DNA of 64,000 nucleotides from a virus, in IMG/VR virus record IMGVR_UViG_3300031951_021456, positions 62,001 to 126,000 of that record, one strand, 5' to 3'. The position numbers and the translations under genes were made by a program. Position 1 is the first letter of the stretch. The number at the start of each line of letters is the position of its first letter. The notes under the pieces are model-generated. The model saw nothing but the letters and a program-made list of their open reading frames with translations. It did no database searches and was not told the DNA's origin. Below, piece by piece: positions 9,430 through 62,639 of the stretch.

Positions 9430-9795
9430 ATGAAAATCTCTACAACACATAAAAGATTTGCAGATCATTTAGATGACCAAATCGCTCTAGAATACCCTGC
9501 ACGTTTTCTAGGACCCAATTGGAAGAATGTATTGAACTTCTGGATCTATTTGGATACTTTGAGTGGTGAAGAATTTAGGTTAATTTTTGATCGTTATTGG
9601 GCTTTAGATGAAGATGCTAGAGTTTCTGCTATAAATAATGCTCATAAAGCGGCTGAAGCGACTATAGATATTCATTATACATATACAACTCGTGGTGCCG
9701 CCCTTACACTTGCACCTGCTTATGCATCCCTTGAACTCATTGGTTCTCATAAGCTAGAGTCTCTTAATTTTCTTCCTTTGTTTCTAAACCAGTGA
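9430..9795 (+). CDS. LGPNWK family member 1 (121 aa)
   Basis: Member of the multi-copy family of this window. The N-terminal block reads FADHLDDQIALEYPARFLGP then NWKNVLNFWIYLDTLS. The middle is variable and Ala-rich, and the C-terminal block is ELIGSHKLESLNFLPLFLNQ. The stop overlaps the GTG start of the next member, so the pair is translated together. Function unknown; no catalytic residue set is obvious. Confidence 0.8.
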   Translation: MKISTTHKRFADHLDDQIALEYPARFLGPNWKNVLNFWIYLDTLSGEEFRLIFDRYWALDEDARVSAINNAHKAAEATIDIHYTYTTRGAALTLAPAYASLELIGSHKLESLNFLPLFLNQ

Positions 9796-10171: not shown

Positions 10172-11320
10172 ATGAATTTACTTAATGGCATTGTAGATAT
10201 ATTCCCATCAATAGAACCACAAAATTTTTTGGAAACTCCAAAAAGAATTAAACTTGGATTTGATCCAACAACAGATTTTTTACATTTAGGTCATGCTGTT
10301 CTTTTAAGAAAATTAAGGCAATTTCAAAATGAAAATCATACTCCTGTAATAATTATAGGTGACTTTACTGCAAGAATTGGAGATCCAACAGGAAAATCAA
10401 AAACTAGAAAACAATTAACCAAAGAAGAAGTAGAATTCAATACCAATGAATTTTTGAATACTCTTTCAAATTTTATTGACCCCGAAAAATCTGAAATTAT
10501 TTTTAATTCTAAACATTTAGAACAATTATCTCTATCTACAATTATACAATTACAATCATTGGTAACAGTAAATCAACTCCTAGCGAAAAGGGATTTTCAT
10601 CAAAGATTTGAATTACAAAGCCCTATCAGTTTGCATGAATTTATGTATCCACTACTTCAAGGATATGATAGTCATGTAATATCATCTGAAATAGAACTTG
10701 GAGGAATTGATCAAAAATTTAACATCTCAATGGGTAGAGATGTTCAAAGACATTTCAAAAATAAAAATGAACAAATTGGAATGTTAATGCCAATTTTATG
10801 TGGTACTGATGGTGCCAATAAAATGTCTAAAAGTTTGAATAATGCAATAAAAATTGATGAACATCCTTTAATAATGTTTTCTCAATTGGAAAAAATTCCA
10901 GATAATTTAGTAGATGAATATATTCTTCTACTCACCGACTGTAATTTGGGAGATTTTTCTCCAGATCCTAGAGAAAGGCAAAAACAAATGGCCTTTGAGA
11001 TTGTTTCAGAATTTTATGGTTCTGAAGTTGCTCTAAAGTCTATGAATGAATCTCAACAGATCGTTTTGTCTAATTCAAATATATCAGATGTCCCAGAGAT
11101 AGTTGTTTCACATTTGCAGTTTCCATTACCTCTTGCAACTTTATTGAGAGAAACTAAATTATCAGATAGTTCATCTGCAGCAAGAAGATCAATTCGTTCA
11201 GGTTGTATTAAATTAGATGGGATTAAAATTACAGATGAAAATATTATGGTTGATATAAATGATATTGAAAATAAAATTATAAGAATGTCAAAGAACTCTT
11301 TTCATCGTTTTGTCATGTGA
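10172..11320 (+). CDS. tyrS: Tyrosyl-tRNA synthetase
   Basis: A 382-aa class I aminoacyl-tRNA synthetase that charges tRNA-Tyr with tyrosine using ATP. Visible hallmarks: the HIGH-type motif HLGH (38-41), the Tyr-binding block GGIDQKFNISMGRD (177-190), KMSKS (217-221), and a C-terminal S4 RNA-binding domain (LATLLRETKLSDSSSAARRS onward). Length is close to bacterial TyrRS, and no catalytic motif is missing. It sits directly behind two LGPNWK family genes. A phage-encoded TyrRS is unusual and fits the other tRNA-related genes nearby. It shares the AT-rich composition of its neighbours, so it is not obviously a recent transfer. Confidence 0.95.
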   Translation: MNLLNGIVDIFPSIEPQNFLETPKRIKLGFDPTTDFLHLGHAVLLRKLRQFQNENHTPVIIIGDFTARIGDPTGKSKTRKQLTKEEVEFNTNEFLNTLSNFIDPEKSEIIFNSKHLEQLSLSTIIQLQSLVTVNQLLAKRDFHQRFELQSPISLHEFMYPLLQGYDSHVISSEIELGGIDQKFNISMGRDVQRHFKNKNEQIGMLMPILCGTDGANKMSKSLNNAIKIDEHPLIMFSQLEKIPDNLVDEYILLLTDCNLGDFSPDPRERQKQMAFEIVSEFYGSEVALKSMNESQQIVLSNSNISDVPEIVVSHLQFPLPLATLLRETKLSDSSSAARRSIRSGCIKLDGIKITDENIMVDINDIENKIIRMSKNSFHRFVM

Positions 11321-18837: not shown

Positions 18838-19287
18838 ATGACTTCTCTTCATCTTGATTCCTCGGTTAGCGGACACCTTTTCAAAGATATTAAAATTTCT
18901 CTTTCTGATGATGAACAAGTTAATATCACACGGTTCATTAAAATTTATTATTTTGGTGATGATGAAATAACAAATGAAGAGATCTTAGACTATCCAAATG
19001 ATGTTGTAGAAGGATACACTGCTGCTCTTGGTAGGTTAAGAGGTGGGTGGTCTACAACACTTTCAATGTCTTTTAATCACAATGGGAATCCTTGTATTAA
19101 AATTTCCGAATATGACATTGCTGGTTATGACGAAATTGACAAAATAAAAGAACAAATAGGTTGTTCTTCAGGTTGTGCAATTGATGTATATTTGCTTAGA
19201 AGAAAATTGGATTGGACACGAGAACAAGAACTTGAGCTAATCAATACTCATAATGCCGGTGTTCCATCACATGTTACATTGCTTTGA
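18838..19287 (+). CDS. Unknown protein with CS-CA-DVY-LR module (149 aa)
   Basis: The C-terminal 50 residues (IKEQIGCSSGCAIDVYLLRR then LDWTREQELELINTHNAGV) are paralogous to the 15549 gene. The N-terminal ~95 residues form a separate, unrecognised alpha/beta domain. Start set by the promoter just upstream. Confidence 0.7.
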   Translation: MTSLHLDSSVSGHLFKDIKISLSDDEQVNITRFIKIYYFGDDEITNEEILDYPNDVVEGYTAALGRLRGGWSTTLSMSFNHNGNPCIKISEYDIAGYDEIDKIKEQIGCSSGCAIDVYLLRRKLDWTREQELELINTHNAGVPSHVTLL

Positions 19288-26085: not shown

Positions 26086-27630
26086 ATGTCACTTAAAATT
26101 TCCGAAAAAGCTAATCTTAATTATCTTGCAAAAGTTGTAAAACTAACAAATCTTAGAAAGCATCCAAATGCAGATAAATTACAGATAACCACTATTGATG
26201 GAAATAATATCATTACTGGCTTAGATGCTAAGGATGGTGATCTTTATGTGTATTTTTCTCTTGAAAGTTCAATCAATTTGAATTATATTTCATTTTCAAA
26301 TGGATTTAGGGAAAGCTCTTTAAATACTAATAAAGAAGTTGTTGGATTTTTTGAACCAAGAGGTAGAGTGCGGGCGATCTCTCTTCGGGGTGAAAAATCA
26401 TGTGGATATATTTGTCCAGTAAAAAATATCAATGAATGGCTTAATACCTTTACGTCTTTCAATATTACTGAAGAACATCAAGATGTAGAATTTGATATGA
26501 TTTGTGATACGGTAATGTGCGAAAAATATATAAATCGTGAAGCACTTCTTAAAATCTTAAAGGCCAATAAAACTCCAAAGGGTATTAAAAAATTAGCAAA
26601 AGAAACAAAGCTAATTGAAGGTCAATTCGCATTTCATGTTGATACTGCACATCTTCAAAAATATATCTATAAAATCAATCCGCATGATATCATTCATATT
26701 TCCAAAAAGCTTCATGGAACTTCTGCTATTGTTGGAAATATTTTGTGTAAGCGTAAATTATCGCTTAAAGATTCCATTGCAAGATTTTTTGGGGTAAATG
26801 TAAATGAAACAGAATATCAATTGATTTGGTCTTCTAGAACAGTTGTAAAGAATGGCAACTATTATTTGTCTTGGCAAGAAACCCTCTGGAAAAATTTTCT
26901 ATATTATCTCAGCAGTTACAAAAAACCATTTGAATCTTGGGTATCCTTGATTTTAGCTGAAGGTGACCAGAAAAGAGAAGAATTTTTTGGTGATTTGCAA
27001 TATCATAGATCAACTCCTTTGCAACTCTATAAAGATTTGCAAGAGTGGAGTAAAATTATCAAAAATCCACAAACATCTAATCATTATTATTCATATGATA
27101 TTTGGAGGGATGTTGCTATCCAGCTTGAAGATTTTCTTTATAAAGGAATGACATTTTATTGTGAAGTTGTTGGTTATACAAAGGAAGGAGCATATCTTCA
27201 AAAGGGTTATGACTATGGTTGCGATCTAGGAAACTTTGCAATTTACATCTATCGCATCACATATACAAATCCTTCAGGGAAGATATTTGAATTTTCAACT
27301 CAGCAAGTGAAGGCATATTGCAATAAACTTGGCCTAAACATGGTCCCAGAACTTTATTATGGGAGAGCAAAAGACCTATTTGACATTCCTGTAGATGATA
27401 ATTGGCATGATAATTTTATTGAATTAGTTAGCCAGAATTATCTTGAAAAGGATTGTGACATGTGTGTAAATAAAGTTCCAGATGAAGGTATTGTACTCCG
27501 TAAGGAAGATATTGACATTGAACCATACAAATATATAAGTTTTGCATTTAAACTGCGAGAAACAAAAAATGCAGATAATGGCGAAATTGATCTAGAAACA
27601 ATTGAATCTGAACAGTTAGGTGATGCATAA
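26086..27630 (+). CDS. RNA ligase, two-domain (Rnl5/DraRnl-like)
   Basis: A 514-aa protein. Residues ~12-110 form an OB-like module (LAKVVKLTNLRKHPNADKLQ) seen at the front of one RNA ligase class. The ligase core begins at ISKKLHGTSAIVG, where the Lys of KLHGT is the likely nucleotide acceptor. It continues with WSSRTVVKNG, FYCEVVGYT (motif IIIa), DEGIVLRKE (IV) and FAFKLRE (V). It would seal nicked or cleaved RNA. It is the second RNA ligase of the window and has its own terminator upstream. Confidence 0.85.
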   Translation: MSLKISEKANLNYLAKVVKLTNLRKHPNADKLQITTIDGNNIITGLDAKDGDLYVYFSLESSINLNYISFSNGFRESSLNTNKEVVGFFEPRGRVRAISLRGEKSCGYICPVKNINEWLNTFTSFNITEEHQDVEFDMICDTVMCEKYINREALLKILKANKTPKGIKKLAKETKLIEGQFAFHVDTAHLQKYIYKINPHDIIHISKKLHGTSAIVGNILCKRKLSLKDSIARFFGVNVNETEYQLIWSSRTVVKNGNYYLSWQETLWKNFLYYLSSYKKPFESWVSLILAEGDQKREEFFGDLQYHRSTPLQLYKDLQEWSKIIKNPQTSNHYYSYDIWRDVAIQLEDFLYKGMTFYCEVVGYTKEGAYLQKGYDYGCDLGNFAIYIYRITYTNPSGKIFEFSTQQVKAYCNKLGLNMVPELYYGRAKDLFDIPVDDNWHDNFIELVSQNYLEKDCDMCVNKVPDEGIVLRKEDIDIEPYKYISFAFKLRETKNADNGEIDLETIESEQLGDA

Positions 27631-61114: not shown

Positions 61115-61582
61115 TTATGAGAATTTATTTTCTGTTTTATTTTTAATATGAATTTTTGTCCTTAGTTTAAATTTTTGGGGGGCTTTATCTCTGTATTTTT
61201 TTGGTATTTTTGGAGCATATACCATACCAGAAGGTTCTTTAGAGATATGTTTTTTGGCATAATCTGGGTCCATTACTGAAGTGTGATATTTTCTACCCCA
61301 GTCATCAACAGCCTGTTGGCCAGAAGTTTTTACAACTTTCCCTGGAGGATTTTTCTTAATATCTTTGGTTGGAACTCTAAATGATATTATTTTAGTTTTC
61401 TTTTCACCATGTCTTTGACCAAAGCTTCTAGCAATTTCTTTATTTGTTGAGGCATAAACCTCGCTAGTATTAAACCCAGATTTTCTAATTTTTCTTTCAG
61501 AACTTTCTGGGGTGCCATGATAGTACCTTGTGAACTTTACTTGTTGCTTAGCTTCTTCAATGAATTCATTAAAGGTTTTCAT
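61115..61582 (-). CDS. Head-packaged ADP-ribosyltransferase-like protein A (155 aa)
   Basis: Begins MKTFNEFIEEAK, resembling the capsid-targeting leader of T4 internal proteins; the bond after IEE would suit the T4-type prohead protease consensus. After it, YYHGT (20-24), SSERKIRKSGFN and EVYASTNKEIARSFG follow an ADP-ribosyltransferase/RNA-2'-phosphotransferase style. It would be packaged in the head and delivered with DNA. Last gene of a three-gene late operon; overlaps its upstream neighbour. Substrate unknown. Confidence 0.65.
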   Translation of the reverse strand: MKTFNEFIEEAKQQVKFTRYYHGTPESSERKIRKSGFNTSEVYASTNKEIARSFGQRHGEKKTKIISFRVPTKDIKKNPPGKVVKTSGQQAVDDWGRKYHTSVMDPDYAKKHISKEPSGMVYAPKIPKKYRDKAPQKFKLRTKIHIKNKTENKFS

Positions 61583-62124
61583 TTTTGATTAGGTATTCTT
61601 TTGGGATTTTGTCTGGGTTTCTTAGGATTTCTTATTGTTGGTTGAGGATTTCTATCAATAGATTGATTTGCAACATCTTTATCAACCATGACGTAAGAAC
61701 CCTTCATATCATAGTGTGCATCTGGCACTCTAACTATTCTCTCACCTTTTTTAATTGCCTCAGCAGATTGAACATGTGGACTTATTTGTTTAGCTCTTTG
61801 GGTTAATTCGTCGCCCGAATACTTTTTAGATAATGATTTCACCTTTTCTGTGTAGTCTTTTTTTGATGTTGTGCTTTTTATCTTTGGATTTACGATTTTT
61901 AGATCAACCCTAGATTTCCCATACTCTCCCCCAATTCTAGAAGAGGGTGTAGTGTAAACTGTTTTATGCCAGTATTGTGCATCTCTAGGGTGATAAGCTC
62001 CAGTTGAGCCGGGTTCAAAACCCTTTTGTAAGATTTTATCTCTACTTTCTTTAGATGTATAATGAGCAGTTCTTAAGATTCTCAGATTTTTTGCTTCTTC
62101 AATGAATTCATTAAAGGTTTTCAT
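61579..62124 (-). CDS. Head-packaged ADP-ribosyltransferase-like protein B (181 aa)
   Basis: Same MKTFNEFIEEAK leader as protein A. AHYTSKESRDKILQKGFEPG and HKTVYTTPSSRIGGEYGKSR are placed like an ART core (His-Tyr-Thr at 21-23). C-terminal region is basic (NPKKPRQNPKRIPNQK). A second, more diverged injected enzyme. Overlaps genes at both ends. Confidence 0.6.
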   Translation of the reverse strand: MKTFNEFIEEAKNLRILRTAHYTSKESRDKILQKGFEPGSTGAYHPRDAQYWHKTVYTTPSSRIGGEYGKSRVDLKIVNPKIKSTTSKKDYTEKVKSLSKKYSGDELTQRAKQISPHVQSAEAIKKGERIVRVPDAHYDMKGSYVMVDKDVANQSIDRNPQPTIRNPKKPRQNPKRIPNQK

Positions 62125-62618
62125 TCTATTCCTAAGCGTTGGGCTGCTCTATCCATTCTTGAAGCAAGTGTTCTTTTTTGGGCTTCCTTTTTCAAGATAT
62201 CTGGATTTTCTCTTCTTTGTCTTGCATATTCTCGGTCGCTTTCAATTTGAGCTTTTCTTTCTTCAGCTCTTTTTCTTGCTTCTTCTCTTCTATCTTCAAT
62301 GGCCTTTTGTCTTTGTGCTGAGCCTGGTATTTTTTGATAGCCTCTTACAGTTGCTCTAGTGGCTTCAATTGCCTCAAGAATATTTGAGAACCATTGTTCA
62401 CTCATAACATCTGCAATTACCTCAGCACTTTCAAGTGACTTTGCAAAGCCCTCATTGACAAGATATTCTTTTACCAGCTTTGCTCTATCTTTTCTTATCC
62501 CCATTAGCTCTTGTTCAGTTTGAGCCTTATTGGTTTGATTTTTTCTTGGGGGATTTTTTAGACTATTGGAGCGTCTTTCAATGGCTCTTTTTAGTTCTTC
62601 GTAGCTTTTTGTGTCCAT
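62121..62618 (-). CDS. Basic helical late protein (165 aa)
   Basis: KLVKEYLVNEGFAKSLESAE and VIADVMSEQWFSNILE form a helical unit that I associate with small phage proteins; the second half is very basic (RREEARKRAEERKAQIESDR). First gene of the leftward operon, behind a GATAAATA promoter. Likely a virion or packaging-associated protein. Confidence 0.65.
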   Translation of the reverse strand: MDTKSYEELKRAIERRSNSLKNPPRKNQTNKAQTEQELMGIRKDRAKLVKEYLVNEGFAKSLESAEVIADVMSEQWFSNILEAIEATRATVRGYQKIPGSAQRQKAIEDRREEARKRAEERKAQIESDREYARQRRENPDILKKEAQKRTLASRMDRAAQRLGIE

Positions 62619-62631
62619 GAGTTTTTGCTAC

Positions 62632-62639
62632 TATTTATC
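62632..62639 (-). promoter_or_regulatory. Late-type promoter octamer GATAAATA
   Basis: On the minus strand GATAAATA lies 13 bp before the ATG of the 62618-62121 gene: the NATAAATA late promoter pattern. Confidence 0.6.

Follow-up and report, generated by a model that had tools for sequence, protein, structure and literature searches.

A T4-type leader on two candidate head-packaged ADP-ribosyltransferase-fold proteins of a T4-like cyanophage

The virus record IMGVR_UViG_3300031951_021456 comprises 247,932 bases, of which positions 62,001 to 126,000 (64,000 nucleotides, hereafter the window) carry a three-gene operon, P0-P2-P1, on the minus strand, with start-stop overlaps of 4 bp between successive genes. 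An original prediction made from the DNA sequence had proposed that the last two genes, P1 and P2, encode head-packaged effectors that combine a T4-type targeting leader with ADP-ribosyltransferase (ART)-like motifs. The record was searched in pieces and the operon was read on the minus strand of the window; calls of open reading frames (ORFs) agree with the two predicted genes, their common start, and the presence of YYHGT and AHYTS in both products. The same record encodes a prohead protease of the T4 type (Peptidase_S77, PF03420; E 3e-37) and gp23 (E 4e-144). The identity of this gp23 with its counterpart in Synechococcus phage B23 is 75%, and with those of S-B05 and its kin 73-74%. The record is that of a T4-like cyanophage, related to the Kyanoviridae.

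P1 and P2 share a 12-residue start, MKTFNEFIEEAK, and their genes diverge immediately after the 32 nt that they have in common. In both proteins I8-E9-E10 is followed by A11, so that an L/I-x-E site lies at the leader end, as had been proposed for a prohead protease acting at IEE; the cognate protease gene is that found in the record. The T4 internal proteins IPII and IPIII, as translated from the T4 record, begin MKTYQEFIAEA. In T4, ten IPIII residues suffice for packaging, targeting depends most on leader positions 4 and 7 and processing on positions 8 and 10, the gp21 protease cleaves after L/I-x-E, and the capsid-targeting sequence (CTS) may allow T4-like phages to package various proteins (PMC9026906). 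P1 and P2 carry the key residues at positions 4, 7, 8 and 10.

Relatives were gathered with cargo-only patterns in order to avoid selecting on the leader; a cargo-only profile was too variable for scanning, with no stretch conserved enough, and single cargoes were therefore used as queries. A leader-type motif is present in the upstream reading frame of all 38 cargo-only relatives. One of these, at locus L201, has a degenerate leader next to the ART, in an ORF that is fused with a further leader gene. The other 37 leaders have F or Y at position 4, F at position 7 and E at position 10 throughout, I, L or M at position 8, and A or V at position 11, while positions 5 and 9 are the most variable; this conservation of the key positions bears out the proposed kinship with T4 internal-protein leaders. 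A degenerate leader pattern gave four matches in this record, three in T4 (IPII and IPIII included) and two each in B23 and P-SSM2, and the reversed control pattern gave none across seven records. Since all 38 relatives carry the motif and the reversed control is empty, the shared leader is more than a chance likeness. The PHROG 'internal head protein' was matched by 18 of the 29 members of the ART family alignment, and the P1 match begins at residue 1. Furthermore, gp23 of the record has an L-F-E site followed by S in its N-terminal region, at about the place where T4 gp23 has L-T-E followed by A. Judged from these motifs, the P1/P2 leader very probably acts as a CTS, and there is good reason to expect both proteins in the phage head; being tagged with a T4-type head-loading label, they would probably be injected with the viral DNA.

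The third T4 gene matched by the leader pattern (L217, T4 19101-19130, minus strand) encodes 54 amino acids starting with MKTFKEFIKEDMVAGDSGG. Just beyond the window, a highly charged protein of 46 amino acids has the leader MKTFIQFIEEAE (G000:C1:126310; L208:1390-1530, minus strand).

The putative citidylyltransferase T4-GC190, a cyanophage protein whose leader is equivalent, is an experimentally identified virion component, being reported from purified virions of S-SM1 (PMC3037559). In S-SM1 the gene annotated T4-GC190 begins MKKFSAFLNEAE, with F4, F7, L8, E10 and A11 apparent in its start MKKFSAFLNEAERS, and the P-SSM2 member of this group begins MKSFSQFLTET. The orthologue in the present record begins MKTFSQFLLEY (G000:C1:222675; L209:1501-2715) and is a 404-residue leader-bearing nucleotidyltransferase (PF01467, E 9e-4) with weak NMNAT matches. 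By analogy, the detection of T4-GC190 in virions independently supports the role assigned to the leader. Should this nucleotidyltransferase make nicotinamide adenine dinucleotide (NAD+), the ARTs would have a partner in it.

The leader is found on many other proteins. A degenerate leader scan of viral contigs, combined with neighbouring genes and other fetched loci, returned at least 193 distinct complete leader proteins in at least 62 cargo clusters (lower bounds), with a mature isoelectric point (pI) above 9 in 91% of the sampled ones; since this sample was chosen for the leader and then enriched in ART loci, the cluster sizes are not frequencies. Pfam searches of the tested leader proteins identified GNAT, nucleotidyltransferase, zeta-toxin-like kinase, lytic transglycosylase and glucosaminidase domains. 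As read from these genes, the leader is a general cargo tag. Adjoining cassettes are at times fused in frame, namely ART with GNAT (L175:3965-5353), a P0-like protein with ART (L138:558-1583), and a leader protein with a degenerate leader and ART (L201:3281-4531). The leader DNA of non-homologous cargoes is somewhat more similar within loci (0.735) than between them (0.677; 0 of 5000 permutations). Cassettes could be exchanged by recombination at the leader, although shared codon usage could explain the similarity within loci. Identity of the P1 and P2 leader codons has a chance of ~0.009 under codon usage, and is suggestive only as a sign of recombination.

The two cargoes had been described as divergent, and direct BLASTP between them is indeed not significant (20% identity, E 0.72). 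P1 and P2 are nevertheless distant homologues, because iterated hidden Markov models built on the cargo alone connect them via intermediates and a leader-free profile comparison gives a probability of 94.6 (E 7e-8). Their best structural neighbours differ, and different targets, as first suggested from the divergence, are conjectural. AlphaFold2 models were compared with the PDB, with predicted local distance difference test scores of 78.7 for P1 (29 alignment rows) and 87.4 for P2 (27 rows). Both models match ART folds in Foldseek and VIA-align, which agrees with the ART-likeness first proposed from the motifs. In the case of P1, Tpt1/KptA enzymes take the first seven places in Foldseek (best E 0.004), and VIA-align superposes 77 residues on Tpt1 with a Z of 10.0 at 2.1 Å, followed by diphtheria toxin, PARPs, ExoA and others. 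P2 has diphtheria toxin, the RES and NatT toxins and ExoA as Foldseek neighbours (E from 0.003), and VIA-align to diphtheria toxin gives a Z of 8.1 at 2.7 Å over 104 residues. The best matches of the predicted models have a Foldseek probability of 1.00, and nearly all VIA-align neighbours listed belong to the ART superfamily. Viral models near P2 are annotated as PARP-like, PolyVal ART and DarT proteins.

Profile searches point in the same direction for P1: Tpt1 accounts for the best eight of nine matches of the P1-type profile to PDB sequences (best E 0.014), and among single family members there are matches to PARP (E 4e-4) and, in six of them, to ART-PolyVal (best E 0.006). The P2 profile matched no PDB sequence. 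In all 29 rows of the alignment H22, I32, G36, V42 and A109 are invariant, which includes the His of motif I, and position 43, in motif II of the NAD pocket, is Tyr in 26 rows and His in three. The cargoes of P1 and P2 almost certainly adopt an ART fold, as predicted by these models. Searches with tblastn for P1 and P2 in 50,697 phage records found no relative, and neither did a genome contig scan, which used the leader as its sole pattern and hence says little about cellular homologues.

Table 1 Features of the P0-P2-P1 operon; positions refer to the window
Feature	Position	Strand	Remarks
Late-type promoter GATAAATA	62632..62639	-	21 nt before P0 start
P0, first operon gene	62121..62618	-	165 aa; carries motif LVKEYLVNEGFAKSLESAEVIADVMSEQWFSNILEA, common to many genes adjoining leader genes
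P2, leader + ART-fold protein (diphtheria-toxin/RES/ExoA-like fold)	61579..62124	-	181 aa
P2 leader MKTFNEFIEEA	62092..62124	-	32 nt from ATG identical to P1 leader
P2 ART core, residues 14-160 (H21, V56, Y57)	61645..62085	-	structure comparison, alignment
P1, leader + ART-fold protein (Tpt1/KptA C-lobe-like)	61115..61582	-	155 aa
P1 leader MKTFNEFIEEA	61550..61582	-	predicted cleavage after E10 (L/I-x-E rule)
P1 ART core, residues 16-114 (H22, G36, V42, Y43)	61241..61537	-	structure comparison, alignment
P1 basic C-terminal tail, family consensus RTKTQPKKK	61118..61162	-	

The operon lies close to gp25 and gp6, in the flank of the gp46-gp25 interval, which is a named hot spot in cyanophages (PMC3037559). 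At the corresponding place B23 has two leader genes with other cargo, b23_0252 and b23_0253, both annotated hypothetical, which encode a GNAT-like protein (by its resemblance to leader GNATs) and a protein of 70 residues. Homologues of gp25 or gp6 are present on the fetched stretch in 16 of the 41 listed ART loci, some of which come from the same phage. The window and two other stretches of the record together contain 25 copies of the motif NATAAATA; eight of these are placed 20-35 nt ahead of an ORF start, as compared with 1.35% expected (p ~1e-9), and this placement is the best among 21 permutations of the motif. Such sites precede gp21, gp25 and the P0-P2-P1 operon, and across the whole window only two are placed before an ORF. 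The promoter marks the operon as putatively late-expressed.

The P0 motif, ~38 residues of the type VLDYLLDEGYADTxESAExIMxxMSEEWxxSIVE, was found in 69 ORFs at 48 fetched loci; 20 of 47 distinct ORFs immediately precede a leader gene, in many cases overlapping it by 4 bp. The motif often terminates in an I-x-E-like site, is also present in L010:388-957 and L010:1045-1866, and may be a second head-targeting or core-binding element. Elsewhere in the window, 14 related ORFs over 30 kb of the plus strand (at 9430, 9792, 20081, 20434, 22217, 23220, 27674, 28039, 33836, 35505, 39120 and others), many of them with MKISxxHxxFAxxLxxQxALEYPERFLGPNWKxVLNFWIYLDTLS, form a large paralogue family; a Pfam search of one tested member gave no match. 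A near-identical element of ~70 bp with a sigma-70-like TTGACA ... TATCAT lies upstream of 37411, 41820 and 48582 on the plus strand; it precedes three different early-type genes, and reading it in frame yields the artefactual N-terminus LTNHNSSPIIKKSSTLE.

We consider it probable that P1 and P2 are late internal head proteins that act as NAD+-using ARTs in the host. They would be expressed late in infection and be brought into the prohead core by their first 10-11 residues, a CTS of the IPII/IPIII type. The phage's own gp21 protease would then cut after Glu10 and leave basic mature proteins starting at Ala11, which would be enclosed with the DNA and ejected into the host. There the conserved His and Tyr of the small ART-superfamily domains would serve to bind NAD+. 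Early in infection these domains would most likely ADP-ribosylate macromolecules of the host, or consume NAD+ in another way. Loading, cleavage, ejection, NAD+ use and a host target are the steps that we infer.

Several points weigh against this explanation. The phage is uncultured and packaging is predicted from its sequence, and T4-GC190 was reported from virions without its location therein. The Foldseek E-values are modest (0.004 and 0.003 for P1 and P2), and the P2 Z of 8 is near the level of models without a clear relative, yet its top rows are nearly all ARTs. Searches of Pfam, NCBIfam and PADLOC gave nothing above cut-off for the P1 and P2 proteins of the window. In the C-terminal half of the 29 rows neither Glu nor Gln is conserved in any column, and a conserved Glu of the third ART motif is thus not found; when the PARP strand E-Y-I-V-Y-D is aligned by eye with S-Y-V-M-V-D in P2 and H-T-S-V-M-D in P1, the position of the PARP Glu is taken by Ser and His, respectively. 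ARTs that lack the third-motif Glu include active mono-ARTs as well as inactive members, and the fold is therefore firmer than the chemistry: with a conserved catalytic Glu missing, transfer activity and the reaction performed are less certain. In our estimate, P1 and P2 are fairly likely to be active on NAD+, and modification of a host macromolecule is somewhat favoured. Finally, a protein can be basic and packaged without having an enzymatic function, since T4 IPIII serves head assembly.

The last point leads to an alternative in which P1 and P2 are packaged by way of the leader, with an ART fold that is incidental or has no catalytic activity, and the proteins serve as IPIII-like basic core helpers or DNA binders. 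Their pI of ~10 and the conserved basic tail of P1 would suit such a role, as would the missing third-motif Glu, given that the inactive PARP13 is among the PARP-like folds without it. However, the pocket His and the Tyr/His are kept in 29 of 29 rows even though the cargoes diverge to ~25% identity, and a DNA-binding filler would need no conservation of the pocket, which makes this alternative unlikely.

Consumption of NAD+ by RES/NatT-type enzymes, which would alter host NAD+ levels with no target modified, appears improbable. RES, NatT, ParT and MbcT are among the structural neighbours of P2, and the record also encodes the leader-bearing nucleotidyltransferase that weakly resembles NMNAT; the structural matches, however, reflect the shared fold, and depletion of NAD+ would harm the phage too. 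Slightly less probable again is RNA-end repair by Tpt1/KptA-like enzymes that enter the host to restore tRNAs cleaved by its defence nucleases. In structure and sequence alike P1 matches Tpt1 best, RHG and VHAST-like motifs included, and weak NCBIfam and PHROG matches also name RNA 2'-phosphotransferase, but the match covers just the C-terminal half of Tpt1, from about residue 90, and P1 has no counterpart of the N-terminal RNA lobe; the neighbours of P2 are diphtheria toxin, RES and ExoA rather than Tpt1. The possibility that the leader is a conserved N-terminus of other use, in translation or tail assembly, draws on the phage being known from its sequence only and is very improbable in view of the identity at functionally mapped T4 CTS positions, the spread of the leader over at least 62 sampled cargo clusters, the basic cargoes, the late-type promoter and the virion-detected leader protein.

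A tyrosyl-tRNA synthetase (PF00579, E 4e-67) and an OB-fold RNA ligase (PF09414) are encoded on the plus strand of the window at 10172-11320 and 26086-27630, and possibly answer host attack on tRNA.

As internal head proteins with NAD+-using ART domains, P1 and P2 would resemble T4 IPI, IPII and IPIII in the near-identical leader, the L/I-x-E site, the basic mature part, the T4-type protease in the genome, the late-type promoter and the occurrence of several leader genes with unrelated cargo per genome. They differ in the ART-fold cargo, IPI being a restriction inhibitor and IPII and IPIII having no known enzyme activity, and in the location of the operon in the gp46-gp25 flank, which is a cyanophage one. 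The original prediction had drawn a parallel to T4 Alt, which holds for the combination of an internal-protein-type leader and a proposed head-packaged ART that is co-injected with DNA, but not for Alt itself. Alt belongs to the Alt/VIP2 R-S-E class of ARTs, has 683 residues and starts with the leader MELITE, whereas P1 and P2, with 155 and 181 residues, have an internal-protein-type leader and belong to the H-Y class; homology to Alt was rejected on account of its different leader and its different ART class, as the cores of P1 and P2 have H and Y in place of R-S-E.

The ART core of P1 superposes on the C-lobe of Tpt1/KptA, but P1 lacks the N-terminal RNA-binding lobe and has the packaging leader directly before the ART core. 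The ART domains of polyvalent proteins (PF18760, with weak matches in six of 29 family members) are likewise proposed to be delivered with phage DNA; these proteins are very large and multidomain, however, whereas P1 and P2 are single small domains with a short leader. Diphtheria toxin, ExoA, RES and ParT are fold neighbours of P2, and differ from P1 and P2, which have neither the conserved catalytic Glu nor cell-entry domains and are placed in a phage-injected context. A survey of ARTs in 21,191 viral proteomes inferred head packaging for many of them from gene context and MuF fusions; targeting sequences, propeptides and IPIII do not come up in its main text (PMC9503650). In a literature search that excluded most subscription journals no description of CTS-tagged ARTs in cyanophages was found; head targeting of internal proteins is already known from T4, and it is the P1/P2 ART family, its leader and the cyanophage locus that were not found described.

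Injected proteins act first in infection and are hard to spot outside T4 and a few giant phages. More speculatively, and we regard this as doubtful at present, T4-like cyanophages may have a general system of recombining cassettes, with one short capsid label attached to injected enzymes of an open-ended variety; in this phage the virion would bring in NAD+-using ARTs and, alongside them, a leader-tagged enzyme, possibly NMNAT-like, as a potential source of NAD+, and take-over of the host would precede phage gene expression. With the present ART family, the predicted packaged phage effectors come to include a Glu-less ART of the H-Y type. A leader recognisable in the sequence would make testable injected effectors of many marine and freshwater T4-like phage genes now labelled 'hypothetical'. 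It would also reveal how the phages of Synechococcus attack this host, whose take-over is so far poorly understood.
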